IMG/VR virus record: IMGVR_UViG_3300032236_001270
Span: 1-37,423 of that record
DNA from: a virus
Direction: 5' to 3' (one strand)
DNA length: 37,423 nt
This document shows positions 4,019 through 24,846 of the stretch, one piece after another (position 1 is the stretch's first letter; each line of letters starts with the position of its first letter). The notes below the pieces were generated by a model that was not told the DNA's origin, ran no database searches, and saw nothing but the letters and a program-made list of their open reading frames with translations. Made by a program: the position numbers and the translations under genes.

Positions 4019-5953
4019 ATGTCACGTTCTATTGAAAACCCGTATGAAAACTTTATTGCACTATCTCGTTATGCGAGATGGTTAGAAAACGAAAACCGCA
4101 GAGAGACGTGGGAAGAAACTGTAGACCGCTACTTTAACTTTATGTTAAATCAGTTATCAACAAAGCATAACTATGTTCCAGATCAAGGTCTTGTTACAGA
4201 ACTTAAGGATGCAGTCTTTAATCGTAATGTTATGCCATCAATGCGATCTGTAATGACTGCAGGTGCAGCACTTGAAAGAGAAAATGTTTCAGGATATAAC
4301 TGTGCATTCCTTCCAGTTGATAACGCTCGTTCATTTGATGAAGCAATGTATATTCTTATGTGTGGCACTGGTGTTGGATTCTCTGTTGAGTATAAGTACA
4401 TCAATAAACTTCCCGCCCTTCCAGAAACACTTGAAAAGTCTAACACAGTAGTTTCAGTTGGAGATTCAAAAGAAGGTTGGGCAAAAGCTTATCGTGAACT
4501 TCTTTCACTTCTTTGGGCCGGACAAATTCCTCAAATTGATATTAGCAAGGTTCGCCCTTCAGGTGCACGTCTTAAGACTATGGGCGGAAGATCATCAGGT
4601 CCACAGCCTCTAGTAAATCTTTTTGATTTTACAATTCAGGTATTCAAGGGAGCACTTGGTCGTCAACTAAAGCCAATTGAATGTCATGACATTATGTGTA
4701 AGATTGGTGAAGTTGTTGTTGTTGGTGGAGTTCGTCGTTCTGCGATGATTTCACTTTCAAACATTAATGACATTGAGATGGCACAAGCAAAGGCAGGTAA
4801 TTGGTGGGAGTCAAACGCACAACGTGCATTGTCAAACAACTCAGTTGCATATTCTCGTAAACCAGATATGGCTCAGTTTATTGCAGAGTGGAAATCTTTG
4901 TATGATTCAAAGTCAGGTGAACGTGGTATATATAATGTTGCAGCAGCACAGAAGCAGGCAGCAAAGTATGGTCGTCGTAATCCAGATATTCATTATGGAA
5001 CTAACCCATGCTCTGAGATTATTCTTCGCCCATATCAATTTTGTAATCTTTCAGAGGTTGTGTTGCGTGAGCAAGATACAGTTGCAGATGTAGAAAATAA
5101 AGTTCGCCTTGCTTCAATTCTTGGAACATGGCAGTCAACACTTACAGACTTTAAGTACATCCGTAAAATCTGGAAAGATAATACCGAAGAAGAACGCCTA
5201 CTTGGAGTTTCTTTGACTGGTCAATTTGGACACAAGTTCTTTTCAGGTCAAGAAGGACTTGAGGAACTATCTTCAACGCTAGACGATCTTCGTAAGTGGG
5301 CAGTAGAAGTAAATATTTTAGAGGCAGAGAAAATTGGGATTCCCGCCTCAGCAGCAGTTACCTGTGTTAAGCCATCAGGAACAGTTTCCCAATTGGTCGG
5401 GGTGAGTTCAGGAATGCATCCGTGGCATTCAGATTATTATATCCGCACAGTTCGTGGGGACAAGAAAGATCCAATTACTCAGTTCTTAAAGGATACCGGA
5501 ATTCCTGTAGAAGATGATGTAATGAAGCCAAATGATACTTATGTATTTTCATTTCCAGTAAAAGCACCTTCAAATGCCATTACTAGAGATAAGCTTACAG
5601 CAATTCAGCAACTTGAGGTATGGTTAGTTTATCAACGTCACTGGTGTGAGCATAAGCCATCTATTACTGTATCCGTAAAGGAAGATGAATGGATGGAAGT
5701 TGGAGCATGGGTATACAAGCACTTTGATGAAGTATCTGGAATTTCATTCCTTCCTTACTCAGAGCATACCTACGTTCAGGCCCCATATCAAGAGGTTACA
5801 GCAGATCAATACCAGGATATGGCTGCAAAGATGCCAAAAGAAATTAATTGGCAAGCACTTTCACTTTATGAGTTAGAAGATACAACAACTGGAACTCAAG
5901 CACTCGCCTGCGTATCTGGAGAATGTGAGATTGTTGATATCGGTAAGAACTGA
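4019..5953 (+). CDS. nrdJ: class II (adenosylcobalamin-dependent) ribonucleotide reductase
   Basis: The 644-aa protein converts ribonucleotides to deoxyribonucleotides for phage DNA synthesis. It shows the cysteines and radical-site residues of the monomeric class II family: C95 (SGYNC) and C342 (QFCNLSE) as the redox pair, N329, C331 and E333 in TNPCSE as the active site, and the C-terminal pair C631/C636 in ACVSGEC. Other conserved pieces are CGTGVGFSVE, GVRRSAMISLSN and CVKPSGTVSQLVG. It is somewhat shorter than the Lactobacillus enzyme (about 739 aa), as in many phage forms. No class I small subunit or class III activase lies nearby, as expected for a B12 enzyme, so the host probably must supply adenosylcobalamin. 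A GAGGAG site precedes the ATG; the gene has its own promoter and a strong terminator. The gene symbol rests on family resemblance. Confidence 0.93.
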   Translation: MSRSIENPYENFIALSRYARWLENENRRETWEETVDRYFNFMLNQLSTKHNYVPDQGLVTELKDAVFNRNVMPSMRSVMTAGAALERENVSGYNCAFLPVDNARSFDEAMYILMCGTGVGFSVEYKYINKLPALPETLEKSNTVVSVGDSKEGWAKAYRELLSLLWAGQIPQIDISKVRPSGARLKTMGGRSSGPQPLVNLFDFTIQVFKGALGRQLKPIECHDIMCKIGEVVVVGGVRRSAMISLSNINDIEMAQAKAGNWWESNAQRALSNNSVAYSRKPDMAQFIAEWKSLYDSKSGERGIYNVAAAQKQAAKYGRRNPDIHYGTNPCSEIILRPYQFCNLSEVVLREQDTVADVENKVRLASILGTWQSTLTDFKYIRKIWKDNTEEERLLGVSLTGQFGHKFFSGQEGLEELSSTLDDLRKWAVEVNILEAEKIGIPASAAVTCVKPSGTVSQLVGVSSGMHPWHSDYYIRTVRGDKKDPITQFLKDTGIPVEDDVMKPNDTYVFSFPVKAPSNAITRDKLTAIQQLEVWLVYQRHWCEHKPSITVSVKEDEWMEVGAWVYKHFDEVSGISFLPYSEHTYVQAPYQEVTADQYQDMAAKMPKEINWQALSLYELEDTTTGTQALACVSGECEIVDIGKN

Positions 5954-9162: not shown

Positions 9163-12100
9163 ATGTCCAGTAAAAAATTTAAAGTACTAATTAACCTAGC
9201 ACACTTGGCTTCCGATCCAGCTGGTGGCGTGTCTGGAGATATATACTATAATACAACAATAAATTCTATTAAATATCACAATGGTTCGGGGTGGACTTCG
9301 TTTTCTTCCGGCGGAACCGCCGGAGTTACTACATTTAATACTCGTTCAGGCGATATAACTCTTTCAAGCACTGATGTTACAGACGCACTTGGATATACTC
9401 CCGCTACACCCACAGATATTTCTAATGCTATTAGTACAGCCGAGGGCTATGCAGACGGACTAGCATCAAATTATGAGCCTGCAGGATCAATTTCTACTGC
9501 AATAGGTGCATTAACAACATCAAATATACCAGAAGGCTCAAGACCATATTTTACTGCTAAAAGGGCTCAAGATGCGGTAGGAAATAATGTTGGAACCGGA
9601 CTTTCATATAATACTTCATCCGGTAGCATTTCTATTGATACAGCCGTAATCCAATTAAGGGTTACGGGGGTTTCTGATACAGAAATTGGATTCCTTGATG
9701 GCGTCACTTCAGGAATTCAATCTCAAATTAATTCTAAAGCACCTATCAATTCACCTACTTTTACTGGAACCGTAATACTACCAAATTCAACCGTAACAAA
9801 TTCAATGTTGGCGGGATCAATTGATAACAGTAAACTATCTAATTCAAGCATTACAATAAATGGAACCTCAGTATCATTAGGAGGATCAAGAACCCTTAAT
9901 ACAGATGATATTTCAGAAGGATCAATACATTTTTATTATACAGATAAAAAGGCACAAGATGCAATAGGAAATCACCTTGGAGCAGGACTTTCCTATAACA
10001 GTACAAGTGGTTCTATATCTGTAACTGCAAATACATATGACGCATATGGTGCAGCATCAACTGCAGAATCAAATGCAAAATCTTATTCAGATGGCCTAGC
10101 GTCAAATTATGATCCAGCAGGATCTGCAACAACTGCACTTAATAGTGCAAAATCCTATGCTGATACAAAGAAAACTGAAGCAATTACTGCTTCTGAGCTA
10201 TATGCAGATGGACTTGCATCAAATTATGATCTTGCGGGATCTGCAACAACTGCTCTTAATAGCGCAAAGTCTTACACAGATGGAAAAATATCAACAGAGG
10301 TAAGCGATAGAAATTCAGCTATATCTGTAGGAGTATCAACAGCAGAATCTTATGCAGATACTAAAAAATCAGAAGCTATTACTACTTCTGAAGGATATAC
10401 TAATAATCAGATTTCAAATCTTATTAATTCCGCCCCCTCAACTTTAGATACATTAAAAGAATTAGCAGATGCTCTAGGGTCAGATCCAAACTTTGCAACA
10501 ACAGTTGCAAACAGTATAGCAACTAAAGTTTCTAAGTCAGGCGATACAATGTCTGGCAATCTTGCTATGGGTACAAATAAAATTACAGGGCTCGGTGCTC
10601 CTTCTGCAAATGCGGATGCAGCTACTAAAAAGTATGTTGATGATTCTGCATCAAGTGCTGTGTCAACAGCAGAAGGATATGCAGACGGTAAATTTGCCCC
10701 ACTAGCAGGAGCTACATTTACTGGCGATGTTGTTATAACAGCAACTGATGATTCAAATTCAACTACAGCAGGAGCACTTGTTGTAGATGGTGGAATTGGT
10801 GTTGCAAAGAATATTCATGCGGGTGGAACAGCATATTTTGGTGCTCCAACATCTCTTACTTTAAATGATCCAATGGCGTTTTTTACAAACAATGTAAACT
10901 CATATACACAAGTAGGATTACAAAATACAAGTAGTGGTGCAGAAGCATCAGCAGACCTAGTTATTACTGCAGATAATGGTACAGATACAACACATTATAT
11001 TGACATGGGTATTGCTTCAAGTGGATATAATTACCCAGACTACAGTCTTACAGGTGCAAATGATGCATACATTCTTGTAGAAGGTGGAGATCTTGCTCTT
11101 AATGCGGGAACCGGCGGTAAAGGAATAGTCTTTGCTGCAGGTGGATTTCAAATTACTGATAAAGTTGGTAAATGGGATGAGACAAAGCTTGAAGTAAATA
11201 ATGATTTTAAAGTAGATGGAAACACCACATTAGTTGGAACATTGAATGCCGGAGATACAACATTAAACTCTTTAAATTCAGGAGATGTAAATGCAGTTGC
11301 ACAAGATGCCACTCATCCTCCATTACAAGTATTTGGTCACACATCTCAATCAGGAAATCTACAAGAATGGTTAGATTCTTCAAATAATGTTCTTGCTTCT
11401 GTAGATAAATTAGGTAATATAACTGCTCCAGCTTTTTATGGAACTAATATTGGAAATCTTTCTTTCTTAGGACATAACAATACCGGATCAACAATTGCAA
11501 AAGGCTCACCAGTTTATTTAACTGGTGTTGATACTAATAATTATGCAACTATAGCATTAGCAAATGTTGCAGATCCCGCCAAAATGCCGGGAGCAGGTGT
11601 TACAGCTGTAGATATTGCTGACGGACAAACCGCAGAAGTTGTTATTATTGGACAACTTCATGGAGTAGATACATCTTCATGGCACTACAATGATGTACTT
11701 TATGTAGATGGTGCAGGTGTACTTACAAATGTTAAACCTACAAATGTAAACTATTCAGTACAACCAATCGGTTCAGTTGAAAAGGTTGGAAATTCATCAA
11801 CCGGAGCAATCCTTGTTAACTCAACAGGAACTACTGTTGATGTACCTAATACAATTTCAATCCCAGGAAACATTACAACTACGGCGGGAAATTTTACAGG
11901 GTCGGGCTCAGGTTTAACTACACTTAATGCTTCAAATCTTTCAAGTGGAACTGTTCCTTCGGCCCGACTTTCATTAACATCTTCAGATATTCCATCTTTG
12001 ACACATTCAAAGATTTCAGATTTTCAATCTACAGTTCTCGGATATACTCTTGATCAATTTGCTACACCTGCTGCAAATGTTGGCATGGGTGGATATAGAA

Positions 12101-14991
12101 TTACAAACCTAGGCACTCCAACACAAACAGGAGATGCTGTAAATAAATCTTATGTTGATGCTTTGTCTTCAGGTCTTTCAATTAAACAAGCTGTTAATTA
12201 TGCAACAACAACAACTCTTCCAAATACACCAACTTATACAGATGGCACTGCAGATCAATCACAAGGTCTAGGTATTGGAGCAAAATTAGAATCTTCAACA
12301 ATTACTCGCCTTTCAATTGATGGTGTAAACGTAAATACTGGTCAAAGAATTCTTGTTAAAAACCAAGCAAATGCTGCTCATAATGGTATATACGATGTAA
12401 CTAACCAGGGATCTGCCGGATCGCATTGGATTCTTACACGCTCATCCGATGCAAATAACAGCATAGCAGGAGAACTTCGTCCAAATGCTTACGTTTCAGT
12501 ACTAGCTGGAAATACCCTCATCGGTACATCTTGGGTTATCTCCGGAACAGGAACTGCTACAACACCTTCAGGTGCAATTAAAATTGGTACTGATGCTGTT
12601 ACGTTTAGTCAATTTAATGGTGCTGCTTCATACAATGCAGGAGCAGGTCTTACCCTCACAGGTCTTACATTTGATATAGTTACAGCAGGATCTGACAGAA
12701 TTGTTGTAAATGCAGATAATATTGATCTTGCTACAGTTACACGTACAGACACTTCAGGTTCTGCAGGCGGAAGCCGTATAACTGCTATTACAACAGATGA
12801 ATATGGTCGTGTAACGGGAGTAACGACGGGAACTCAGGTAGACGCCACCACTTCAGTTAAAGGAATTGCATCGTTTGATTCAGGAGATTTTTCAGTAGCA
12901 TCTGGAGCAGTAAGCATTAAATCCGGTGGAGTAGATAATTCACAGCTTGTTAATTCAAGCGTAACAATTGGTTCAACAAATATTTCACTTGGCTCAAGTG
13001 CTACAAGTTTGGCGGGATTGTCAAGTGTCACATCTACATCATTCTCTGGTAATTTAACAGGTAATGTAACAGGAAATGCTTCAACAGTTACAAATGGAGT
13101 TTATACAACAGACACTGGAACTGTTACAAATACAATGCTTGCAGGGTCTATTGCAGATTCTAAGCTTCTAACAATTTCAACTGCAGGTAAAGTATTAAAT
13201 TCTGCAACTACTGCAACACAGGCAAATACTGCATCAGCAATTGTAGCTCGTGATGCATCAGGAAACTTTACTGCAAATATAATTACAGCAGATTTGGCGG
13301 GGAATGCAAATACTGCAACCAATGCCACAAATGCCACAAATGCTACAAAAGCAGCTATTACAGAAGATACAACTACAAATGCTTCTAAATACATTACATG
13401 GGTTGATGCCAATACAGGTAATAATCCTATTAAGACAACTTCAACCAAGTTAACATTCAATCCATCAACTGGCATTATTTCTGCTACAGGATTTAGCGGT
13501 TCCGGCGCAAATCTTACAAGTATTCCAAATGGTGCATTAACTAACTCATCATTTACTATTAATGGAACTTCAATATCACTCGGAGATACAAAGACAATTA
13601 CAGCTGCTGCTGGAACTTTAACTGGATCCACACTTAATTCAACAGTAACTGCTTCATCACTTACAAGCGTAGGAACTTTATCAAGCCTTACAACATCAGG
13701 AGATGTAGTAGTTGGTGGAAATCTAACTGTTAACGGCACAACCACAACAATTAATTCAACAACAGTAACTACAACAGATACAAACATTGAAATTGCTAAG
13801 GTTGCAAGCCCAACAGATGTAACTGCAAATGGTGCGGGAATTACAATTAAGGGTGCCACAGATAAGACATTCAACTGGTACTCTTCAACTTCCGCATTTA
13901 CCTCATCAGACAATATGGATCTTGCATCAGGTAAAACTTATAAAATTGCGGGAACAACAGTATTATCTGCTACACAAGTATTGGGCAAAGGCTTTACAGA
14001 TGCAAATGGTGAAATATTAACCACAAATGGTGCACAGACGGTATCCGGAAAAATAATTTCAGGTGCAAATAATACCATTTCAAATATCTCTCCTTCATCT
14101 ATAACCAATGGATACATTAAAATTGGTTCAAATACCATTAATATTGGTGATCCAGCAGTTACAACTTTGGCCGGACTTTCAAGTGTTACCTCAACATCAT
14201 TTGTTGGAGCACTTACAGGAAATGCCTCAACTGTAACTAATGGAGTATATACAACTGATACCGGTACAGTAACCAACACAATGCTTGCTGGATCTATTAC
14301 AGACTCTAAACTTAATCAAATTACAACAACTGGAAAAGTTGCAAATTCTGCAACAACAGCTACATCTGCAAATACAGCATCTGCTATAGTTGCAAGAGAT
14401 TCTTCAAATAATTTCTCTGCTGGAACAATTACAGCAGCACTTTCTGGAAATGCTTCAACTGCAACTACCCTTGCAACCGCAAGAGCAATAAATGGAGTTA
14501 ACTTTGATGGCTCTGCACCAATTACAATTAAAGCATCTACAACAAATGCGCTTTCAATAGGAACCGGTCTTTCAGGATCATCATTTGATGGTGGTACGGC
14601 GGGAATAACAATTGCAATAGATACCTCTGTTGTAGTTGACAAAACAACTGTACAAACACTTACTGGCAAAACATTAGGTGCAACATCTACTACAACATTA
14701 TCTGCAAATACTGCAACAGCAATGGATACAGTTCAACTTTCAAGTTTTACTACAGCTAAATATATAGTTTCAATCAAGCAAGGATCAAAGGTCAGAAGCT
14801 CTGAGCTTATGATTCAGACAGATGGAACATCTGTTGATTCTATGGAATATGGTATTGTAGAAACCGGCGGAACTATGAGTGGAATAGTAGTAGCTGGTGT
14901 AGTTTCATCTACAAACATGGTTTTAAATATAACAATAACAGATGCAGCATCTACAAATGCTACTGTGAAAATCCAGAAAGTTCTGTTATAA
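9163..14991 (+). CDS. giant tail fibre protein (1942 aa)
   Basis: This is the longest complete gene in the window. The N-terminus (FKVLINLAHLASDP; DIYYNT; YHNGSGW) matches the fibre type next door. Then come repeats of YADGLASNY(D/E)PAGS (about residues 100-370), the common fibre motifs PSTLDTLKELADALGSDPNF and SGDTMSGNLAMGTNKITGLG, TTAGALVVDGGIGVAKNIH, a domain of the SPVYLTGVDTNN / ADGQTAEVVIIGQLHG kind, a globular NGIYDVTNQG / HWILTRSSDANN module, and GNLTVNGTTTTINSTTV. These are typical of fibres in marine cyanophages. A block near residue 1283 recurs near residue 1669. The end (SSELMIQTDGTSVDSMEYG; SGIVVAGVVSS) is a non-repetitive beta cap. Probably a trimeric, elongated host-binding fibre. 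Confidence 0.88.
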   Translation: MSSKKFKVLINLAHLASDPAGGVSGDIYYNTTINSIKYHNGSGWTSFSSGGTAGVTTFNTRSGDITLSSTDVTDALGYTPATPTDISNAISTAEGYADGLASNYEPAGSISTAIGALTTSNIPEGSRPYFTAKRAQDAVGNNVGTGLSYNTSSGSISIDTAVIQLRVTGVSDTEIGFLDGVTSGIQSQINSKAPINSPTFTGTVILPNSTVTNSMLAGSIDNSKLSNSSITINGTSVSLGGSRTLNTDDISEGSIHFYYTDKKAQDAIGNHLGAGLSYNSTSGSISVTANTYDAYGAASTAESNAKSYSDGLASNYDPAGSATTALNSAKSYADTKKTEAITASELYADGLASNYDLAGSATTALNSAKSYTDGKISTEVSDRNSAISVGVSTAESYADTKKSEAITTSEGYTNNQISNLINSAPSTLDTLKELADALGSDPNFATTVANSIATKVSKSGDTMSGNLAMGTNKITGLGAPSANADAATKKYVDDSASSAVSTAEGYADGKFAPLAGATFTGDVVITATDDSNSTTAGALVVDGGIGVAKNIHAGGTAYFGAPTSLTLNDPMAFFTNNVNSYTQVGLQNTSSGAEASADLVITADNGTDTTHYIDMGIASSGYNYPDYSLTGANDAYILVEGGDLALNAGTGGKGIVFAAGGFQITDKVGKWDETKLEVNNDFKVDGNTTLVGTLNAGDTTLNSLNSGDVNAVAQDATHPPLQVFGHTSQSGNLQEWLDSSNNVLASVDKLGNITAPAFYGTNIGNLSFLGHNNTGSTIAKGSPVYLTGVDTNNYATIALANVADPAKMPGAGVTAVDIADGQTAEVVIIGQLHGVDTSSWHYNDVLYVDGAGVLTNVKPTNVNYSVQPIGSVEKVGNSSTGAILVNSTGTTVDVPNTISIPGNITTTAGNFTGSGSGLTTLNASNLSSGTVPSARLSLTSSDIPSLTHSKISDFQSTVLGYTLDQFATPAANVGMGGYRITNLGTPTQTGDAVNKSYVDALSSGLSIKQAVNYATTTTLPNTPTYTDGTADQSQGLGIGAKLESSTITRLSIDGVNVNTGQRILVKNQANAAHNGIYDVTNQGSAGSHWILTRSSDANNSIAGELRPNAYVSVLAGNTLIGTSWVISGTGTATTPSGAIKIGTDAVTFSQFNGAASYNAGAGLTLTGLTFDIVTAGSDRIVVNADNIDLATVTRTDTSGSAGGSRITAITTDEYGRVTGVTTGTQVDATTSVKGIASFDSGDFSVASGAVSIKSGGVDNSQLVNSSVTIGSTNISLGSSATSLAGLSSVTSTSFSGNLTGNVTGNASTVTNGVYTTDTGTVTNTMLAGSIADSKLLTISTAGKVLNSATTATQANTASAIVARDASGNFTANIITADLAGNANTATNATNATNATKAAITEDTTTNASKYITWVDANTGNNPIKTTSTKLTFNPSTGIISATGFSGSGANLTSIPNGALTNSSFTINGTSISLGDTKTITAAAGTLTGSTLNSTVTASSLTSVGTLSSLTTSGDVVVGGNLTVNGTTTTINSTTVTTTDTNIEIAKVASPTDVTANGAGITIKGATDKTFNWYSSTSAFTSSDNMDLASGKTYKIAGTTVLSATQVLGKGFTDANGEILTTNGAQTVSGKIISGANNTISNISPSSITNGYIKIGSNTINIGDPAVTTLAGLSSVTSTSFVGALTGNASTVTNGVYTTDTGTVTNTMLAGSITDSKLNQITTTGKVANSATTATSANTASAIVARDSSNNFSAGTITAALSGNASTATTLATARAINGVNFDGSAPITIKASTTNALSIGTGLSGSSFDGGTAGITIAIDTSVVVDKTTVQTLTGKTLGATSTTTLSANTATAMDTVQLSSFTTAKYIVSIKQGSKVRSSELMIQTDGTSVDSMEYGIVETGGTMSGIVVAGVVSSTNMVLNITITDAASTNATVKIQKVLL
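13009..13320 (+). repeat. internal duplication in the giant fibre, copy 1
   Basis: This block encodes LAGLSSVTSTSF, NGVYTTDTGTVTNTMLAGSI, NSATTAT and NTASAIVARD in order. Copy 2 at 14167-14466 encodes the same order with few changes, while the DNA has diverged at many third positions. Confidence 0.75.
14167..14466 (+). repeat. internal duplication in the giant fibre, copy 2
   Basis: Second copy of the block at 13009-13320. Both keep the phrase NGVYTTDTGTVTNTMLAGSI exactly; the DNA differs, which points to an old duplication under protein-level selection. Confidence 0.75.
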
Positions 14992-15025: not shown

Positions 15026-15682
15026 ATGTCAGATAAGAATTTTAAGGTCAAGAATGGTATTGATGCGGGTGGTGCCATTAATAATGTTACTATTACCGCT
15101 CCCGCCACAGGTTCAACATTAACCATTTTAAATGGTAAGACATTTACAGCAAATAATTCAATCACCCTAGCCGGAACAGATGGAACAACCATTACTCTTC
15201 CATCTACTACAGGAACAATTCCATTAAATAACCAAACATTTTATATTGGAACACAAGCAATTGCAATAAATGCGGGATCGGGAACAATAACAGCATTACC
15301 AGGCGTAACATCTATTAATGGTGCTACACTACCATCATCTGGAACAATTCCTAATACAGGACAAACATTTTATATTGGTACTCAAGCAATTACAATTGCA
15401 CAGGGATCAGGAACAATTACTGCACTTCCAGGTGTAACATCAGTAAATGGAACTACTATTCCATCTTCCGCCACATTATTAACATCAACTTCTACTTCAT
15501 CATCCCTTACATCATTTGGATCGGGAGCAACATTAAATAATGGAGTTTTAACAGGAACCTTAACTGCAAACTCATCTGTTGGAACAAATGGTCAAGTTTT
15601 ATTATCAACCGGAACCGGAGTTCAGTGGGGTAATACAACACCAGTAGCAGACGCAGCAATAGCATCATTTTTATATCGTTAA
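15026..15682 (+). CDS. fibre-like repetitive protein (218 aa)
   Basis: The start MSDKNFKVKNGIDAGG and the phrase LAGTDGTTITLPSTTGT are typical of fibre proteins of aquatic phages. The centre holds two tandem 43-residue repeats beginning QTFYIGTQAI (bases 15233 and 15362), each with GSGTITALPGVTS. The C-terminus NGQVLLSTGTGVQWG also occurs in fibre proteins. No enzyme motif. The nearest ribosome site (AGGGGA) is distant, about 14 bases before the ATG, so the promoter overlapping the preceding stop may matter for its expression. Confidence 0.75.
   Translation: MSDKNFKVKNGIDAGGAINNVTITAPATGSTLTILNGKTFTANNSITLAGTDGTTITLPSTTGTIPLNNQTFYIGTQAIAINAGSGTITALPGVTSINGATLPSSGTIPNTGQTFYIGTQAITIAQGSGTITALPGVTSVNGTTIPSSATLLTSTSTSSSLTSFGSGATLNNGVLTGTLTANSSVGTNGQVLLSTGTGVQWGNTTPVADAAIASFLYR
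15233..15490 (+). repeat. two tandem 129-bp repeats
   Basis: Period 129 bases (43 codons), in frame; both copies begin with a QTFYIGTQAI codon run and contain GSGTITALPGVTS. They lie inside the 218-aa fibre-like gene. Confidence 0.75.
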
Positions 15683-15711: not shown

Positions 15712-16092
15712 ATGGCAACAGCACCAGCATTTGCAGCAACAGTAAGAAATTCAAACGTAGCAATTTCTACTGCAGACACATCTAGAACCGCACCAACTTC
15801 AGTTGGTACAGCATTTACGGCGGGATCTTCAGGAAGTCGTATTGACGAAATTGATATTGTGGCAACAGGAACAACTACAGCAAATGTAGTTCGTTTATGG
15901 ATTTACACTGGATCAACTTATTTCTTGTTACAAGAAGTATTAGTTTCAGCAATTACTCCATCTGTTACACAGGCAGTATTTTCAACTACACTTACATTTA
16001 ACAACTTTATGCTACCTTCAGGATATTCACTTCGTGCAACTACAAATAACGCAGAAGGATATAACGTAATGGTATTTGGCGGGGATTTCTAA
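15712..16092 (+). CDS. 126-aa structural protein, probably fibre-associated
   Basis: It starts MATAPAFAATVRNSNVAIS behind an AAAGGAG site. The body has alternating beta strands (IDEIDIVATGTTTANVVRLWI, split here by a turn) and a C-terminal SGYSLRATTNNAEGYNVMVFGGDF-like beta region. Small proteins of this general look accompany fibre genes in aquatic phages and are presumed virion parts. No signal peptide or membrane segment. It follows the 218-aa protein by 29 bases and precedes the first propeller gene by nine, so all are probably co-transcribed. Specific role unknown. Confidence 0.6.
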   Translation: MATAPAFAATVRNSNVAISTADTSRTAPTSVGTAFTAGSSGSRIDEIDIVATGTTTANVVRLWIYTGSTYFLLQEVLVSAITPSVTQAVFSTTLTFNNFMLPSGYSLRATTNNAEGYNVMVFGGDF

Positions 16093-16101
16093 GGAAATTA
16101 A

Positions 16102-19100
16102 ATGAATTACGGCAGAGAAAAAGGAAACTCAAAAGATAAAACTCTTAATGGAGTTTATAATCCTGTCGTTTTAAATAATAGAGATGATGGCGCAATTCGT
16201 TATTTTCTTAATGGATTCCAGCCAGATAATTCTAAATTAATATCTTTAAATGCATCTAAATATATTCCTAAAATATTTTCCACGGTGCGACAATCAGCAA
16301 CATCATGGATTACAATTAGTAGCCCAACAATTACCTCTAATGCAATAGCATATGGCAATGGAAAGTTAATTGCTATAGGAGCCGGATCTAATAGCTTAAG
16401 TGCATGGACTACACAAACACCTAATATTACAGGTCAAGCTATTTATGGAATGGCATATGGAAACGGAACATGGGTAGCCGGAGGCTCAGCTGGAACTTTA
16501 AGAACCTCAACTAATAACGGAATCACTTGGAACACTCAAACTTCAAATTTTGGAGCTTCTACTATTTATTCAGTTGCTTATGGAGGCGGAACATGGGTAG
16601 CAGTCGGTCAAGGTGGAGCTTTAAGAACCTCAACTGACGCAATCAACTGGAACACGCAAACCTCTAGCTTTACAACTGACATTGAATCAGTAGCTTATGG
16701 CAACGGTATTTGGGTCGCTGGTTCAGTTGGCGGAACAATCAGAACCTCAAACAACAATGGTACATCATGGACTATACAAACAAGTAACTTTGGTACTTCT
16801 GCTATATTTTCAGTAGCCTACGGAAACGGAGCCTGGGTAGCTGTAGGTCAAAGCGGAACTTTAAGAACTTCAAGCGATAACGGTACTACCTGGGTGACAC
16901 AAACTTCTAACTTTGGTACTTCTGCTATACTTTCAGTAGCCTACGGAAACGGAACCTGGGTGGCAGTAGGCGCAGCCGGAACTTTAAAAACCTCAACAGA
17001 TACAATCAACTGGAACACTCAGTTTTCTAATTTTGGAACTTCTAATCTTAACGGAATTACATACGCAAATGGAGTTTGGGTAGCAGTAGGTGATTTAGGA
17101 ACTCTAAGAACTTCAACAAACACAATAAATTGGAATACACAAACTTCTAATTTTGGTATTACTAGCATATCTGTTGTAGCTTCAGGCAATAATAACTTTA
17201 TGGCTGCGGGTCAAACAGTAGTTAGAAATTCAATTCAAACTTATGTAGAGCCAATAAATGTTTCTAACGATCTTGGAGTTTCTTGGAACACACCTGTTTT
17301 TAATTATGGAGTTAATTCTTTATGCTCTATTGCCTATGCAAATAGCACATGGGTGGCAGCCGGACAAAATGGAGAAATTAGAACTTCTACAGATGCAGTA
17401 AACTGGAACAAGCAAAATAATCCTTTTTCTTATAATTCATACAACTATACTCAACCTGTATATACCGTTGCTTATGGAAATGGAACTTGGGCTGCTGGCG
17501 GAGGGGGATCTAGTTATGTAGCAGCTAATACTTGGAACACACAAACTTCTAATTTTGGAACCTCCACCATTTATGGAATTAGTTATGGTTTTGCCACTAC
17601 AGGTAATTTATGGGTGGCTGTTGGAGGAAATGGAAGATTAATAAATTCAACAGATGGCATAACATGGACTACTCAAACCTCTCAATTTGGTACTTCACAA
17701 ATTAACGCAGTTTCTTACGGCAATGGAATTTGGACAGCGGTAGGAAATGCTGGAACAATAAGAACTTCTGCTGATGGAGCCACCTGGACCACACAAACTT
17801 CTAATACAACTAATTCTTTTCAATCAGTTTTTTACGGAAACGGAACCTGGGTGGCAGGAGGCGCAGCTGGAACTTTAAGAACTTCAAATGATAATGGAGT
17901 CACCTGGACCACACAAACTTCTAATTTTGGAGCTTCTACTATTTATTCAGTTGCTTATGGAGGCGGAACATGGGTAGCAGTCGGTGATTCCGGAATCCTA
18001 AGAACATCAACTAATAACGGCATAACATGGAATACGCAAACCTCTCAATTTGGTGCTTCTATTATAAGTACAGTTTCTTACGGCAACGGAACCTGGGTGG
18101 CAGGAGGCGCAGCTGGAACTTTAAGAACTTCAACCGACGCAATAAACTGGATCACACAAACTTCTAACTTTGGTGCTTCTGCTATCTATGCAGTTTCTTA
18201 CGGCAACAGCACTTGGGTAGCTGTAGGTCAAGGAGGAACTTTAAGAACCTCAACAGATACAATAAATTGGAATACGCAAACTTCTAACTTTGGAGCTTCT
18301 AATATATTTGCTGTCGCATATGGAAACGGTATTTTTGTAGATGGAGGAGATGGAGCAACGTTAAGAAAAACACCAGCAATTGATTATCTTATTACCTCAA
18401 CCAATAATGGAATTACTTGGAACACTCAGGTTTCTACATTTTTGTCTGGCATATCTGCTTTATCATATAATAACAATACATGGGTGGGGGTGGGAGCTGG
18501 AATTCTTGCAACAAGCGGTGGTGCTATAAGAACTTCAACAAATGCAACTACATGGATAACTCAATCAGCTCCTGTTGCATATGGAGCTACAGGATATATT
18601 ATTCCTTTTGATGCAATTGCATACGGAAACGGAACTTGGGTAGTGGGCTCTTCTTATGGTGGATCAATAGGTTCATCATGGTTAACACAAAATTCTAATT
18701 TTGGTGGTTCTCTTGTTCTTGCAATAGCATACGGTAATGGAACCTGGGTAGCCGGAGGCGCAGGAGGAACTTTAAGAACTTCAAACGATAACGGAATAAC
18801 TTGGAATACACAAGCTTTTAATTCTATTAATACTATTGTTTCCGTAGCATATGGTAACGGAATATGGATAGCAGGCGCAGTTGGAGGCGTTATAAGAACC
18901 TCAACAGATACAATAAATTGGAATACTCAAACTTCTAATTTTGGTGCCACTAATATAAATGCAATTGCATACGGCAACGGAACCTGGGTGGCCGTAGGCG
19001 CAGCTGGAACTTTAAGAACCTCAACTAATAATGGAGTCACTTGGAATACGCAAACTTCTAACTTTGGTCTTTCAACAATAAATGCAATTGCATACGGAAG

Positions 19101-19821
19101 CGGAACATGGGTAGCTGGAGGCGCAACTGGAACCCTAAGAACTTCAACTAATAACGGTGTAACTTGGAATACACAAAATTCTAACTTTGGCAATAACAGC
19201 ATTAACTCAATAGTTTATGCAAACAGTCTTTGGATAGCAGGAAGCTCAGCAGGACCAATTAGAACTTCTACAGATGCAGTAAATTGGAATATACCATCAA
19301 TAAATTCAATTGGTATTGCCATTAACTGTATTACTTACGGTAACGGTATTTGGATAGCGGTAGGAGGAGGAGGAAATTTAAAAACCTCTACAGATGGGTT
19401 AAACTGGGTTACACCAAATAGTCAGTTCGGAGGAAATACTATTAACTTTGTTTCTTATGGGAATGGAGTATTTCAAGCTGTAGCTTCATCATTTATTAAA
19501 ACTTCATTTGCACTTGAGCCAATCATTACATCAACTAATAACGGAGTAACGTGGACACAATCTAATTCTCAATTTATTGGTGTATCTTCACTATCATATG
19601 GAAATAATATATTTATAGCAGGAGGAAACACTGCTTCTGTTTCAACTTCAATAGATGCCATAAATTGGACGACCACTGCAATAGCTTTTGGAACATCTCC
19701 TGTGGTGCTCACACACACTGGAAACAATTTTGTAGTTGTTGGTTCAGTTTCTAAAAAATCAAATTATAATACATATACTTTGACTTTAAATCCAGCAGGA
19801 ACAGTATACGGTAATGTATAA
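16102..19821 (+). CDS. giant Asp-box-repeat protein, probable multi-propeller appendage
   Basis: The 1239-aa protein has a ~60-residue unique N-terminus (YFLNGFQPDNSKLISLNASK) and then about 27 repeats of ~40 residues of the form AYGNGTWVAVG-x-x-GTLRTST. Each continues with an Asp-box-like turn (STNNGITWNTQTSNFG), the signature of BNR/sialidase-type beta-propellers. No complete set of sialidase catalytic residues is recognisable, so I read it as a binding or structural protein. The repeats form three modules of nine: repeats 1, 10 and 19 are shortened, and repeats 8, 17 and 26 carry an insertion around a P-I/L-x-S-x-NNG segment. It overlaps the next, related gene by one base (TAATG). AAGGAAA precedes the start. 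Likely a virion fibre, perhaps a carbohydrate binder. Confidence 0.75.
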   Translation: MNYGREKGNSKDKTLNGVYNPVVLNNRDDGAIRYFLNGFQPDNSKLISLNASKYIPKIFSTVRQSATSWITISSPTITSNAIAYGNGKLIAIGAGSNSLSAWTTQTPNITGQAIYGMAYGNGTWVAGGSAGTLRTSTNNGITWNTQTSNFGASTIYSVAYGGGTWVAVGQGGALRTSTDAINWNTQTSSFTTDIESVAYGNGIWVAGSVGGTIRTSNNNGTSWTIQTSNFGTSAIFSVAYGNGAWVAVGQSGTLRTSSDNGTTWVTQTSNFGTSAILSVAYGNGTWVAVGAAGTLKTSTDTINWNTQFSNFGTSNLNGITYANGVWVAVGDLGTLRTSTNTINWNTQTSNFGITSISVVASGNNNFMAAGQTVVRNSIQTYVEPINVSNDLGVSWNTPVFNYGVNSLCSIAYANSTWVAAGQNGEIRTSTDAVNWNKQNNPFSYNSYNYTQPVYTVAYGNGTWAAGGGGSSYVAANTWNTQTSNFGTSTIYGISYGFATTGNLWVAVGGNGRLINSTDGITWTTQTSQFGTSQINAVSYGNGIWTAVGNAGTIRTSADGATWTTQTSNTTNSFQSVFYGNGTWVAGGAAGTLRTSNDNGVTWTTQTSNFGASTIYSVAYGGGTWVAVGDSGILRTSTNNGITWNTQTSQFGASIISTVSYGNGTWVAGGAAGTLRTSTDAINWITQTSNFGASAIYAVSYGNSTWVAVGQGGTLRTSTDTINWNTQTSNFGASNIFAVAYGNGIFVDGGDGATLRKTPAIDYLITSTNNGITWNTQVSTFLSGISALSYNNNTWVGVGAGILATSGGAIRTSTNATTWITQSAPVAYGATGYIIPFDAIAYGNGTWVVGSSYGGSIGSSWLTQNSNFGGSLVLAIAYGNGTWVAGGAGGTLRTSNDNGITWNTQAFNSINTIVSVAYGNGIWIAGAVGGVIRTSTDTINWNTQTSNFGATNINAIAYGNGTWVAVGAAGTLRTSTNNGVTWNTQTSNFGLSTINAIAYGSGTWVAGGATGTLRTSTNNGVTWNTQNSNFGNNSINSIVYANSLWIAGSSAGPIRTSTDAVNWNIPSINSIGIAINCITYGNGIWIAVGGGGNLKTSTDGLNWVTPNSQFGGNTINFVSYGNGVFQAVASSFIKTSFALEPIITSTNNGVTWTQSNSQFIGVSSLSYGNNIFIAGGNTASVSTSIDAINWTTTAIAFGTSPVVLTHTGNNFVVVGSVSKKSNYNTYTLTLNPAGTVYGNV
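16342..19770 (+). repeat. about 27 tandem ~120-bp repeats with ~1.14-kb super-period
   Basis: Repeat units encode A-Y-G-N-G-x-W-V-A phrases. Equivalent marker repeats begin at 17176, 18313 and 19450, exactly 1137 bases apart each time. Many units share long identical stretches, so recombination between copies is likely. Confidence 0.8.
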
Positions 19822-20870
19822 TGAATAAAAACAATAAAAACAGTTATTATGAATCAGGCGAAATTATATTTGCAGTACAGTCACCAGGTACAGGGTGGAT
19901 TAAGTTAGATGGATCTATTCAAAAAGTTTCAGCTAAAATTGCTAATAAGTTAATAACTATAGCTTGGAATACACAAACTTCTAACTTTGGATCATCTACT
20001 ATCTATGCTGTTGCCTACGGAAACGGAACCTGGGTAGCAGGAGGCTTAAATGGAACTTTAAGAACTTCAACCGACACAATAAACTGGAATACACAAACTT
20101 CTAGCTTTGGAAGTTCTATTATTTATGTAATAGCATACGGTAATGGAATATGGGTAGCCGGAGGCACAGGAGGCGCAGCTGGAACCCTAAGAACTTCAAC
20201 TGATAACGGTGTAACTTGGAATACACAAACTTCTCAATTTGGTGGTGCTACTATCTATGCAGTTGCTTACGGAAACGGAACATGGGTAGCAGCCGGTCAA
20301 GCTGGAGCTTTAAGAACCTCAACCAATGCTATAAGCTGGAACACCCAAGCATCTAATTTTGGATCATCTAGCATATTTGCAGTAGCTTACGGAAACGGAA
20401 CCTGGGTAGCAGTAGGCGACGGTGGAATCTTAAGAACCTCAACTGATACAATAAATTGGAATACTCAAAATTCTAATTTTAATACTGGAATTAATTCAAT
20501 AGCATACGGTAATGGAATATGGGTAGCCGGAGGTCAAGGAGGAAACTTAAGAACTTCAACCGACACAATAAACTGGAATACACAAACTTCTAGCTTTGGA
20601 AGTTCTATTATTTATGGAATAGCATACGGTAATGGAATATGGGTGGCAGTTAGTCAAATTGGTTCTCTAAGAACTTCAACCGACACAATAAACTGGAACA
20701 CGCAAGCACCTAATGCTGGAACTCTTAGCTTTAGTTCAGTAGCGTATGCTAATTCAACCTGGGTAGCTGTAGGTCAAAGCGGAACTTTAAGAACATCAAA
20801 TGCTTCATCAACATTTATTACTCCTATAATTAACCCTGCATTTAATATATATGGATGGATGAAATTATGA
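19821..20870 (+). CDS. seven-repeat propeller protein, second paralogue
   Basis: The 349-aa protein opens with ESGEIIFAVQSPGTGWIKLDG, which resembles the P-x-GW-x-x-x-DG core of phage tail-collar domains. Then come a half repeat (ITIAWNTQTSNFGSS) and seven full repeats of AYGNGxWVAxG type, and a short end INPAFNIYGWMKL. Half repeat plus seven repeats is what a closed seven-bladed beta-propeller with an exchanged first strand would need. It overlaps both neighbours (TAATG start, ATGA end), so the three paralogues are translated together. Likely a host-binding or decorating virion protein; the ligand is unknown. Confidence 0.75.
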   Translation: MNKNNKNSYYESGEIIFAVQSPGTGWIKLDGSIQKVSAKIANKLITIAWNTQTSNFGSSTIYAVAYGNGTWVAGGLNGTLRTSTDTINWNTQTSSFGSSIIYVIAYGNGIWVAGGTGGAAGTLRTSTDNGVTWNTQTSQFGGATIYAVAYGNGTWVAAGQAGALRTSTNAISWNTQASNFGSSSIFAVAYGNGTWVAVGDGGILRTSTDTINWNTQNSNFNTGINSIAYGNGIWVAGGQGGNLRTSTDTINWNTQTSSFGSSIIYGIAYGNGIWVAVSQIGSLRTSTDTINWNTQAPNAGTLSFSSVAYANSTWVAVGQSGTLRTSNASSTFITPIINPAFNIYGWMKL

Positions 20871-21946
20871 ATAATGGATTAAATAAACAACGTGGTCAAT
20901 ATCAAACAGGTGATTTGATATATAGAAGAAATACAAATTCTTCCCCTGGCCCAGGATGGATAAGCTTAGGCATATCTCAAGATATTACTAAATTTTCAAA
21001 TCTTTCAAAAATTCTTAACGGTTATCAGTACGGATATTGGACTACTCAAGTAACAGTATCTTCAAGCATATCTGCAATAGCATACGGAAATGGAATATGG
21101 GTGGCGGGAGATCGCTATGGCATATTAAGGAATTCAACAGATCAAGGAATGACATGGAATACAATTTCTCAAATTTTTGTGACAGGCTTTGGAGCTTTAG
21201 CCTATGGAAATGGAATCTTTGTTGCCAGCGACTATTTAGGAAATATAAAAACTTCTACAGATACAATAAATTGGAATTTGCAAACTTCTAATTTTGGTTC
21301 TAGCGGAATTTCTGCAATAGCTTATGGAGGAGGAACTTGGGTTGCCGGAGGTGTAGGTGGAGCTTTAAGAACTTCAACGGATAACGGAATTACCTGGAAT
21401 ACACAAACTTCTACTTTTGGTACAAGCCCAATTACTGCAGTAGTTTACGGAAATGGAACATGGGCTGCCGGTGCCAGCGCAGGTTCAAATGCTCCCATAA
21501 GAACTTCAACCGATGGAGGAATCACTTGGAATACGCAAGTTTCTGTTTTTAACAGTACCATAATTCAAATTGTATATGGAAATGGAACTTTTGTAGCAGT
21601 AGGTGACTCGGGCGTAAGAAATTCAACTGATGGAGGAATTACCTGGAATACACAAAATGCAAATTTAGGTGCAAGCGTTACTGCTACTGTGGCATATGGC
21701 AATGGAGTTTTTTTGCTGGGTTCAGGAAGTTCGGGTGGAGATTTAAGATCTTCAACAGACAATGGGGTAACCTGGAACACACACAATTCTAATTTTTCCG
21801 ATATAATTAATAAAATAGCTTATGGAGATGGAAATTTTATACTCACATCCAATGTTGGAACTGTAGGTGGATATATTAAAGCTTTAAAATATGGATATAA
21901 TGTCCCCGCCGGAATAGCAAATTATGTCGCTTGGATAAAAACGTAG
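20867..21946 (+). CDS. seven-repeat propeller protein, third paralogue
   Basis: I choose the ATG at 20867, which overlaps the previous stop as ATGA, over an ATG four codons earlier. The 359-aa product has an N-terminal segment like its neighbour (QTGDLIYRRN; SSPGPGWISLG; FSNLSKILNG) and then seven repeats with Asp-box-like turns such as STDNGITWNTQTSTFG and STDGGITWNTQ. The C-terminus is YGYNVPAGIANYVAWIKT, comparable in position to GWMKL of the second paralogue. Sequence divergence between the three genes suggests they bind different or variable targets. A promoter for the next gene begins directly after the stop. Confidence 0.75.
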   Translation: MNNGLNKQRGQYQTGDLIYRRNTNSSPGPGWISLGISQDITKFSNLSKILNGYQYGYWTTQVTVSSSISAIAYGNGIWVAGDRYGILRNSTDQGMTWNTISQIFVTGFGALAYGNGIFVASDYLGNIKTSTDTINWNLQTSNFGSSGISAIAYGGGTWVAGGVGGALRTSTDNGITWNTQTSTFGTSPITAVVYGNGTWAAGASAGSNAPIRTSTDGGITWNTQVSVFNSTIIQIVYGNGTFVAVGDSGVRNSTDGGITWNTQNANLGASVTATVAYGNGVFLLGSGSSGGDLRSSTDNGVTWNTHNSNFSDIINKIAYGDGNFILTSNVGTVGGYIKALKYGYNVPAGIANYVAWIKT

Positions 21947-21984: not shown

Positions 21985-22716
21985 ATGTTAAATAAAAAAA
22001 TAATTCAAAAAACCATACTACTTGTTGCAACCCCATGCTATGGTGGTCTTGTTAATGAAAAATATACACAATCTATGATTAATTTAACATCAATGGCTAT
22101 GCAGCATGGTATGGGTTTTGGTTATTTTACTAGATCAAATGAGAGTTTAATTACAAGAGCTAGAAATGATTTGGCTTTTAGTTTTTTGCAAACTCCCGCC
22201 ACACACTTAATGTTTATTGATGCTGATATTAATTTTAATGCTGAAGATGTATTTAAATTAATATCTCATGATAAAGATATAATGACTGGGGCATATCCAA
22301 CAAAGACAATTGACTGGAATAACATGGCAAACTCTAAAGATAAAAGTTTGATGGGACTTCAAAAAAATTCTATATTTTATTCCTCTGAGTTTAATGATAA
22401 AGTAAATAAAGATGGTTTGTTAGAAGTTTCATATGGAGCAACAGGTTTTATGTTGATTAAAAGAGAAGTCATTGAAAAGATGATTAAACATTATCCAGAA
22501 ACTGCATACACGCCAGAAGTTTATGATAATCCATCTGAACGTGGAATGCAAAAGTATGCATTATTTGATACAATGATATATAATGGTAAATATCTAAGCG
22601 AAGATTATACATTTTGTCACAGATGGCAGCAGATGGGCGGGAAAGTTTATATTGACCCATCAATAGTCTTAGATCATGTAGGAACATATACATTTAAAGG
22701 CACAAAGCTTAACTAG
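21985..22716 (+). CDS. GT-A-type glycosyltransferase
   Basis: The 243-aa product has a GT-A layout: nucleotide-binding start LLVATPCYGGLVN, the SLITRARNDLAFSFLQT segment, the DxD metal site in MFIDADINF, then GATGFMLIKREV and the likely catalytic region YLSEDYTFCHRWQQMGG. It resembles the next gene over most of its length. Four sugar- or methyl-transfer genes follow one another without real gaps, so they probably act on one pathway, such as decorating the fibres or capsid or altering host glycans. There is no clear ribosome site and the -10 box is six bases away, pointing to leaderless translation. Confidence 0.82.
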   Translation: MLNKKIIQKTILLVATPCYGGLVNEKYTQSMINLTSMAMQHGMGFGYFTRSNESLITRARNDLAFSFLQTPATHLMFIDADINFNAEDVFKLISHDKDIMTGAYPTKTIDWNNMANSKDKSLMGLQKNSIFYSSEFNDKVNKDGLLEVSYGATGFMLIKREVIEKMIKHYPETAYTPEVYDNPSERGMQKYALFDTMIYNGKYLSEDYTFCHRWQQMGGKVYIDPSIVLDHVGTYTFKGTKLN

Positions 22717-22730
22717 TAGAAAGAAATTTG

Positions 22731-23408
22731 ATGAATAACGAAAGACCACATTTTAATGTTTTAATTGCAACACCCGGACATTCAATGCTTCAAGCATATG
22801 TCAGAAGTCTAGTAAAAACAACATACTTTTTTGATATGAATGGAATTACTTGGAATTTCTTAACTGAATACTCTTCTTTGGTAGCAGATGCTAGAGAAAA
22901 AACAATTGGTGGAACTGCGTATCAAGATCCAAATGATTCCCGTCCCGGTCAAGGTACATATACCTATGATCGCATTCTTTGGATTGACTCAGATATTGAA
23001 TGGGAGCCAGAGGATGTTGTGCAACTTTTAAGTCATGACTATGACGTCGTATCTGGTTGCTATATGCTTACAAATGGTGAAGTTACTGCTTATCCAAAAG
23101 TTCTACGTGGCGGAATGACTAAAGAGCAAATCATGGCAAAGAAAAAGCCATTTGAAGTACGTGGAGTAGGTTTTGGCTTTTTGATGGTAAAGCAGGGAGT
23201 TTTTGAAAAGATTAAGCGTCCCTGGTTTTCTCAGATTGATGTTGAAGTTGAAAACGAGGAAACCGGTGAGATTGAATATAAATTCCCATTAATGGGAGAA
23301 GATTTATCGTGGTGTGAAAAAGTACACAGAATGGGTATTCCAATTATGGTTGACCCCCTAGTACGTGTAAATCACCACAAGCAAGTTAAAATAGAATGGC
23401 CTAAATAA
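22731..23408 (+). CDS. GT-A-type glycosyltransferase, paralogue
   Basis: From the ATG at 22731 (a TTG lies one codon upstream) the product is 225 residues. It repeats the plan of the preceding gene: FNVLIATPGHSM, SLVADAREKTIGG, metal site LWIDSDIEWEPEDV, VVSGCYML, GVGFGFLMVKQGVF, and a likely catalytic MGEDLSWCEKVHRMG. These two genes are clearly related and probably arose by duplication. It joins the next gene by a one-base TAATG overlap. Donor sugar and acceptor cannot be told. Confidence 0.82.
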   Translation: MNNERPHFNVLIATPGHSMLQAYVRSLVKTTYFFDMNGITWNFLTEYSSLVADAREKTIGGTAYQDPNDSRPGQGTYTYDRILWIDSDIEWEPEDVVQLLSHDYDVVSGCYMLTNGEVTAYPKVLRGGMTKEQIMAKKKPFEVRGVGFGFLMVKQGVFEKIKRPWFSQIDVEVENEETGEIEYKFPLMGEDLSWCEKVHRMGIPIMVDPLVRVNHHKQVKIEWPK

Positions 23409-24331
23409 TGACAAATATTGATCCGCTTGGCGGGGAAGACATAATGCTACAAAAGCTAGCAAAATACATAGACCTAGATAAGTATAATGTAAACATCATT
23501 AATTCTAAATGCCGTAGAGAGCTTATTGATCTTGATAAAAGAAATGTTTTATGGCAGCATGTACCTGCAGATCAAAATGCGGTAATGGGGATTAGAGACA
23601 AATACTTTAATCGTATGGTTGATGCATACGTTTATGTATCACATTGGCAGCATGAGAAGTTTCGCTATATTCATCAAATCCCGCTTGAAAATGCTTATGT
23701 AATTAAAAATGCTATTGATCCTATTGAATTTATTGAAAAGCCAAAAGACAAGATAAAGCTTATTTATACATCTATGCCATATCGTGGCCTTGGCGTACTT
23801 CTTGATGCTTTTGAAAAATTAAATAGAGATGACGTTGAACTTGATGTTTATTCATCTAATACAATTTATGGTAAAGAATATGTAGAGCATGTAGGCGATG
23901 AATATGATGCTTTATTTGATCGTGCAAAAAATATGAAGAATGTAAATTATATTGGTTATGCTCCGCATGATGATGTAATTAAGGCTTTGCAACAAGCACA
24001 CATTTTTTCGTATCCATGTGTATTTGAAGAAACTGCTTGTCTTTCTATGATTGAAGCAGGTGCTGCAGGTTGCAATCTTGTCACTACAAATGTGGGCGGG
24101 TTGCCAGAGACAGGTTCCGTCTATGCCAACCTAGTACCAATTCAAGCAGATGAAGATACTCTTATAGAAAATTATGCAAAAGCATTGAATGAAACAATTG
24201 ATAATTACTGGTCTGATTCAAATCAAGAGATGCTTAAAGAACAGTCAGCTTTTTATAACAAGCACTACGGCTGGGAAACAAGAAAGCATGAGTGGATTAA
24301 GCTACTAGATTCATTACCCGAGGTAGAATAA
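23408..24331 (+). CDS. GT4-like glycosyltransferase
   Basis: The 307-aa protein is a short GT-B enzyme. Its N-terminal half has DPLGGEDIMLQKLAKY and VYVSHWQHEKF; the C-terminal half has LIYTSMPYRGLGVLLDAF and the donor-binding motif EETACLSMIEAGAAGCNLV (E-x7-E type), followed by TNVGGLPE. This is a different fold from the two genes before it, so the cluster may assemble or extend a glycan in several steps. It may also be compared with the GT4-like gene at 2931, though the two are not close. Coupled to both neighbours by TAATG overlaps. Confidence 0.85.
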   Translation: MTNIDPLGGEDIMLQKLAKYIDLDKYNVNIINSKCRRELIDLDKRNVLWQHVPADQNAVMGIRDKYFNRMVDAYVYVSHWQHEKFRYIHQIPLENAYVIKNAIDPIEFIEKPKDKIKLIYTSMPYRGLGVLLDAFEKLNRDDVELDVYSSNTIYGKEYVEHVGDEYDALFDRAKNMKNVNYIGYAPHDDVIKALQQAHIFSYPCVFEETACLSMIEAGAAGCNLVTTNVGGLPETGSVYANLVPIQADEDTLIENYAKALNETIDNYWSDSNQEMLKEQSAFYNKHYGWETRKHEWIKLLDSLPEVE

Positions 24332-24846
24332 TGCCAACATCAAACCCAGAAAACAAACTCTGGGTTATTAGAAAAATTAAGTCATTAGAGCATGGCAAAA
24401 TTTTAGATGTTGGAGCGGGCCAAGGAGATTATCTTGAGCTAATAAAAGCATATCTACCAGATAATGTAATTGTAGATGCAGTTGAAGCCTGGGAGCCATA
24501 TATAGAAAAGTTCAATTTGCGTGAAAGATACAATAATGTATTTATACAAGACGTGCGGGAATTTGAAGATTTTAAGTACGACATTGTAATCTTTGGAGAC
24601 GTATTAGAACATATGCCAGAATCAGATGCAGTTGATCTCTGGAACAAAATGTCAAAACAAGCTAAGTGTGCCATTATATCAATTCCAATCATTCATCACC
24701 CACAGGGTGCATATGAAGGTAATCCATATGAAATTCATCATGAGGAAGATTGGACTACAGAGCGGGTATTAGACAAATTTTATGGAATTGTAGAGCATAA
24801 AGAGTTTAAAGTTACAGGAACATTTATAGCTAAGTTTGATAATTAA
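24331..24846 (+). CDS. class I SAM-dependent methyltransferase
   Basis: The 171-aa product has the Rossmann-type SAM site: motif I ILDVGAGQGDYLELI (about residues 26-40), an acidic residue ending strand 2 (VDAVEAWEPY), motif III-like VFIQDVREF, and motif IV IVIFGDVLEHMPES. The region PIIHHPQGAYEGNP may contact the substrate. Downstream of three glycosyltransferases it may methylate a sugar or another small group on the product. Its TAATG overlap ties it to that operon. Confidence 0.82.
   Translation: MPTSNPENKLWVIRKIKSLEHGKILDVGAGQGDYLELIKAYLPDNVIVDAVEAWEPYIEKFNLRERYNNVFIQDVREFEDFKYDIVIFGDVLEHMPESDAVDLWNKMSKQAKCAIISIPIIHHPQGAYEGNPYEIHHEEDWTTERVLDKFYGIVEHKEFKVTGTFIAKFDN

Follow-up and report, generated by a model that had tools for sequence, protein, structure and literature searches.

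How a single phage protein made of 28 similar repeat units might divide into folded domains is the question raised by three adjacent genes in the window analysed here, the full 37,423 nucleotides of IMG/VR virus record IMGVR_UViG_3300032236_001270. The genes lie on the + strand and overlap one another via TAATG and ATGA: gene 1 (16102..19821, 1239 aa, about 130 kDa by residue count), gene 2 (19821..20870, 349 aa) and gene 3 (20867..21946). The open reading frame of gene 3 ends at 21946 and offers candidate starts at 20855 and 20867, of which the second, also used in an earlier sequence-only reading of this DNA, is the better choice because it gives the ATGA overlap with gene 2 and an MN-[NK]-G start as in relatives. 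That reading described all three genes as arrays of ~40-aa Asp-box units, about 27 in gene 1 and seven each in genes 2 and 3, and divided gene 1 into three nine-unit modules made by duplication. The open reading frames and the unit parse bear out the three arrays, and the Asp-box motif S/T-x-D/N-x-G-x-T-W was found in most units.

Units were parsed in all proteins with a 40-column unit profile and a cyclic Viterbi procedure. Gene 1 consists of a leading half unit (from column 21), 27 full ~40-aa units and a trailing half unit; the earlier count thus holds for the full units, and the half units at both ends bring the total to 28 blade equivalents. The leading half unit is numbered 1 here, so that unit n of the earlier reading becomes unit n+1. 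Genes 2 and 3 each comprise a half unit, six full units and another half unit, which supports one seven-bladed propeller in each, at 19956-20801 and 21038-21862, respectively. The half units at the two termini point to velcro closure: one blade is completed by the outer strand D that opens the chain and the strands A, B and C that close it. The same pattern of half, n and half units was found in all complete close relatives.

Six units of gene 1 are irregular. Short units 2, 11 and 20 have strands A (YGNG) and B (WVAGG) and have lost much of the strand-C/Asp-box stretch; insertion units 9, 18 and 27 have their own strand C, followed by a second strand C with an intact Asp-box-like hairpin (INVSNDLGVSW, LITSTNNGITW and IITSTNNGVTW). 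These are the units previously listed as 1, 10, 19 and 8, 17, 26, and the 1137-base spacing reported for the second set is real: the insertion units begin at aa 361, 740 and 1119, 379 aa apart, and 1137 bases is the best self-match lag of the gene (49.2% identity), ahead of 2274 bases (45.5%) and the single unit of 120 bases (40.3%). Taken alone, the periodicity of unit identity gives a weak signal (lag 18, z 3.0, permutation p 0.044), since the units have been homogenised. Exactly seven blades separate each short unit from the next insertion unit, starting with strand D and ending with strand C, a layout that matches a free-standing seven-bladed propeller. Furthermore, the strand C that is absent before each seven-blade block reappears after it.

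Three seven-bladed propellers have probably been inserted between strands B and C of hub blades 1, 3 and 5. The inserted blocks would be units 3-9, 12-18 and 21-27, and the leftover blades 2, 10, 11, 19, 20, 28 and 29 would make up the hub, a fourth and discontinuous seven-bladed propeller, so that 9 = 7 + 2 and 28 = 4 x 7. A velcro-closed propeller would lend itself to such an arrangement, as it begins with strand D and finishes with strand C of the same blade, leaving adjacent ends that could be plugged into the loop of another blade. Along the gene, an N-terminal non-repeat domain (16102..16296, aa 1-65) is followed by putative hub piece 1 (16297..16386, aa 66-95), which holds a strand D followed by the first two strands, A and B, of hub blade 1, the short unit without strand C. 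Proposed propeller A (16387..17241, aa 96-380) is followed by hub piece 2 (17242..17508, aa 381-469), consisting of the second strand C with D, one full blade and A and B of the next blade. Proposed propeller B (17509..18375, aa 470-758) precedes hub piece 3 (18376..18654, aa 759-851), which has an extra strand C and a D ahead of one complete blade and a further A and B. Proposed propeller C (18655..19512, aa 852-1137) precedes hub piece 4 (19513..19776, aa 1138-1225), which is built alike, its final A and B belonging to the closing blade. For the hub to close, strands A and B before each insert would have to pair in one sheet with C and D after it. The blades assigned to the hub are more degenerate than the inserted blades (mean score 72 vs 106 bits, p 0.0008).

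The nine-unit modules described earlier thus capture the period but probably not the architecture: each module would combine a complete seven-bladed propeller with two blades that belong to the common hub. Three nine-bladed propellers, or a single giant ring, would suit the 1137-base period and have a precedent in the ten-bladed Asp-box propeller of sortilin (PMC2716378); such rings are very improbable here, given that gene 1 has 28 blade equivalents and not 27, that single relatives are overwhelmingly seven-bladed, and that the structure model of one module resembles seven-bladed propellers despite its extra flanking units.

Nesting was also approached by listing every way of dividing the blades into non-crossing groups of seven. 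A unit counted as marked when the stretch from the end of strand B to the Trp of strand D had gained or lost a net 3 or more residues. In gene 1 the marked units are exactly {2, 9, 11, 18, 20, 27}. Of the 296,010 possible six-unit sets, 819 are crossing sets of a valid nested structure, and the gene 1 set is one of them (0.0028; permutation p 0.002), values that serve as a guide rather than a clean test because the threshold was chosen after viewing gene 1. In single seven-bladed relatives 3 of 185 units are marked, and five 14-unit tandem phage proteins carry one mark each, always at unit 8, the junction. The same marks bear on a serial arrangement of four seven-bladed propellers with borders at units 8, 15 and 22, in which the nine-unit period would reflect duplication history only. 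This order likewise yields 28 = 4 x 7; bacteria often have uninterrupted arrays of 14 units, and in GH74 enzymes one unbroken run of units forms both tandem propellers (PMC2716378). However, units 8, 15 and 22 of gene 1 are regular, all of its irregular units being the six listed above, whereas in the tandem phage proteins an irregular unit marks the junction; a serial order is accordingly quite unlikely.

Structure prediction of one module with its flanks, proposed as a check in the sequence-only reading, returned a propeller. The AlphaFold segment (gene 1 aa 381-860, 480 aa, 36-row alignment) had a pLDDT of 83.4 and a pTM of 0.67, with propeller B mostly at pLDDT 86-97. In segment numbering, the entry side has strands A at 73-79 and B at 82-87, no C, and D at 99-102; six ABCD blades follow, then A at 355-361, B at 364-369 and C at 373-376, and the exit has an extra C at 381-387 (gene 1 aa 761-767) and D at 393-398. 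This strand order agrees with the nested reading, namely A and B without C, seven blades, and an extra C with D, with the qualification that MAFFT had aligned every one of the 28 rows with seven blades to segment residues 93-369 (propeller B), which may favour the propeller boundary. A model of gene 1 aa 44-1239 (1196 aa, four alignment rows) reached a pLDDT of only 36, and the propeller fold by prediction covers one gene 1 module.

In a Foldseek search with the segment model, the best solved match was Ycf48 (TM 0.70-0.77 by target, rmsd 3.5-4.3), and many phage proteins were matched as well. Gene 1 had no match among the sequences of solved structures. The BNR family (PF02012) was matched by gene 3 above the cut-off (30.9 vs 27 bits) and by gene 1 below it (16.7), and gene 2 had no match to this family; Pfam matches were confined to BNR, BNR_2, Reelin_subrepeat-B and Tli3 and were mostly below cut-off.

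Parts of the flanking hub strands were predicted with lower confidence, and seven-bladed propellers joined by linkers are clearly present in relatives L028, L031, L106 and L029. Both observations favour a string of three seven-bladed propellers in gene 1, in which the two-unit linkers form no fourth ring. Such a string is unlikely, as the leftover pieces total exactly seven blades in gene 1 and again at the end of relative L238, the strand C missing before each insert returns after it, and the arrays of relative L003 nest without linkers.

Insertion of propellers into a hub propeller, the preferred reading, can be followed in relatives, since this type of array recurs among IMG/VR contigs. Comparison of repeat numbers, also suggested earlier, yielded mostly 7, 14, 21, 28, 35 or 42 units. 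Complete, well-scored phage proteins had 7 units (n = 28), 14 (5), 21 (2), 28 (2), 35 (1) or other numbers (10), several of the last including linker units counted by the parse. Arrays at L119 366-1106 (4 units) and L036 5974-7023 (8 units) depart from multiples of seven; the former, whose termini are complete, may represent assembly collapse, and the units of the latter are nearly identical. Three overlapping neighbour genes form the same cassette elsewhere, with 7-7-7 (L111, L023), 35-7-21 (L003) and 7-7-28 units (L027).

In L003, W-x-x-x-G replaces W-N-T-Q-T in strand D of particular units, a change found in 0 of 185 units of single propellers. In the 21-unit protein it occurs exactly at units 3, 6, 13 and 17, an exact nested structure (70/4845) with two insertion levels. 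In the 35-unit protein it occurs exactly at 3, 5, 12, 13, 15, 22, 27 and 31, again an exact nested structure (10,472/18.2 million), here with three levels, the mark having been derived on the shorter protein and generalised during the fit of the longer one. L238 (2058 aa, 42 units) was retrieved once the nesting rule already existed. Its short units are 23 and 32 and its double-C units 30 and 39; by inspection, a hub of seven blades carries two inserted propellers and follows the short/long grammar of gene 1, in a self-contained region of 21 units at about aa 1180-2058. L009 and L027 can be fitted by nesting too, on a smaller number of objective marks (permutation p 0.19 and 0.40), and the top automatic solution for L027 differs from the manual one. 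Long relatives L102, L029 and L026 resemble propellers on a string with linkers. On balance, there is a reasonable probability that these phage adhesins are recursively nested seven-bladed propellers, in which one gene may grow by steps of seven and irregular strand C/D units act as matched brackets. A gain of seven in-phase units at any position would leave the chain foldable, and nesting, if right, explains why array lengths are so often multiples of seven.

Several further arrays were recorded. L029, L041 and L233 (1736 aa) have five seven-bladed propellers, and the linkers between them resemble degenerate blade pieces, possibly representing a further hub, with five inserts. The same unit also forms bacterial arrays (genome contigs, loci L138-L217), whose lengths peak at 7 (n = 18) and 14 (n = 19) units; the continuous 14-unit arrays among them have no consistent marked unit and mostly no linkers and are uninformative on nesting. 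A DNA pattern search for W-x-x-[YH]-G-x-N-F-G retrieved no propeller genes.

The three gene 1 modules share 49-55% protein identity and 61-65% DNA identity, and conserved residues are encoded by identical codons at 58-60%. The duplication proposed earlier is therefore retained as an old one. The longest exact DNA repeats (70, 63, 49 and 37 bp) lie at offsets outside the 1137 register, and the 37 bp repeat is common to genes 1 and 2. Sequence thus seems to be traded between units, with the irregular ones keeping their places. This exchange at the level of the unit looks real, and the fixed positions are as expected if they are structural. The idea that near-identical units can recombine is accordingly upheld for exact stretches of 30-70 bp common to units; the modules themselves are far from identical.

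The cassette is bordered on its 5' side by long genes resembling those of fibres and by a conserved gene of 126 aa (15712..16092, +), which in L009 is likewise immediately 5' of the gene 1 homologue. On its 3' side come glycosyltransferase genes, beyond which lie genes for the portal, the head protease and the head. The propeller of gene 2 is flanked by the collar-like termini GEI..GWIKLDG (N side) and GWMKL (C side), and that of gene 3 sits between GDLIY..SPGPGW and AWIKT. These termini resemble collar-domain halves, and in both proteins a single propeller would be held between the two halves of a collar-like attachment domain. The likeness to phage tail collar domain proteins (PF07484) extends to L134, which has a match just under cut-off (7e-5) directly before its propeller array; the window's own proteins fall below Collar detection and gave no match to PF07484 in Pfam. 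In gene 1, aa 1-65 are probably the attachment part; this domain is conserved in L003 and L009 by alignment and similar by eye in L111, L027 and L023. A cultured relative in a Vibrio phage adjoins a gp37-like tail fibre gene, another in an Actinomycetia phage lies among collagen-like genes, and cyanophage relatives carry a baseplate wedge annotation. Limnohabitans phage DC31 and Actinomycetia phage DSL-LC01 are among the cultured relatives.

Genes 1-3 probably encode tail-tip or tail-fibre adhesins made of seven-bladed Asp-box (Ycf48-like) beta-propellers, and receptor binding is their likely role. For these proteins we infer a virion location, a host surface ligand, perhaps a glycan, and the valency of binding. 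Gene 1 may be an enlarged paralogue whose four rings per chain would form a compact multivalent host-binding head, and its role as a multivalent receptor binder, suggested earlier, is likely.

Ycf48/HCF136-like propellers, of a photosystem II (PSII) assembly factor (PDB 2xbg, 5ojr), are the closest solved fold, being seven-bladed with Asp-boxes, and the family profile matches weakly by sequence. Ycf48 is a single propeller in a photosynthesis protein, whereas the phage proteins may have up to four rings per chain. Another analogue considered was the DDB1-type triple propeller, in which one propeller lies between two others. Four organisational types of Asp-box propellers have been listed, namely single, single with another inserted domain, tandem, and tandem split by domains, and a propeller within a propeller is absent from these four (PMC2716378). 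GH74 xyloglucanases, of the tandem type 3 (Quistgaard and Thirup, PMC2716378), likewise have continuous units, but their two seven-bladed Asp-box propellers are in direct succession, whereas in gene 1 propellers appear inserted into another. In the type 2 Vibrio cholerae sialidase a lectin-like domain interrupts the Asp-box propeller (PMC2716378), whereas each insert of gene 1 would be a seven-bladed propeller of the same family. In the section considered of a study of highly repetitive propellers (Pereira and Lupas, 2022, PMC9218822), such propellers are amplified from single blades into long arrays of similar blades like gene 1; 15 WD40 blades are predicted there as serial rings of 7 + 8, a 47-blade case is left unresolved, and nesting is not described. 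A literature search with partial coverage of structural papers found no account of one propeller being inserted into another. If right, nesting would add a fifth organisational type, provide a domain-border rule for long repeat arrays, which structure predictors and simple counting handle badly, and offer a phage adhesin a route to whole new binding domains with the existing fold intact.

Other features of the window were noted around the cassette. The 218-aa gene that precedes it contains a 129-base direct repeat at 15233-15465 (FYIGTQAI..GSGTITALPGVTS), and a 1942-aa fibre-like protein encoded at 9163-14991 had no PHROG match. After the cassette, 21985-24846 holds two glycosyltransferase-like genes that belong to a single PHROG, a third glycosyltransferase and a methyltransferase, most of which are found in L002 and L005 too, with their order conserved. 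A ribonucleotide reductase (phrog_367; Pfam B12-dependent insertion domain) is encoded at 4019-5953, upstream of the tail genes.
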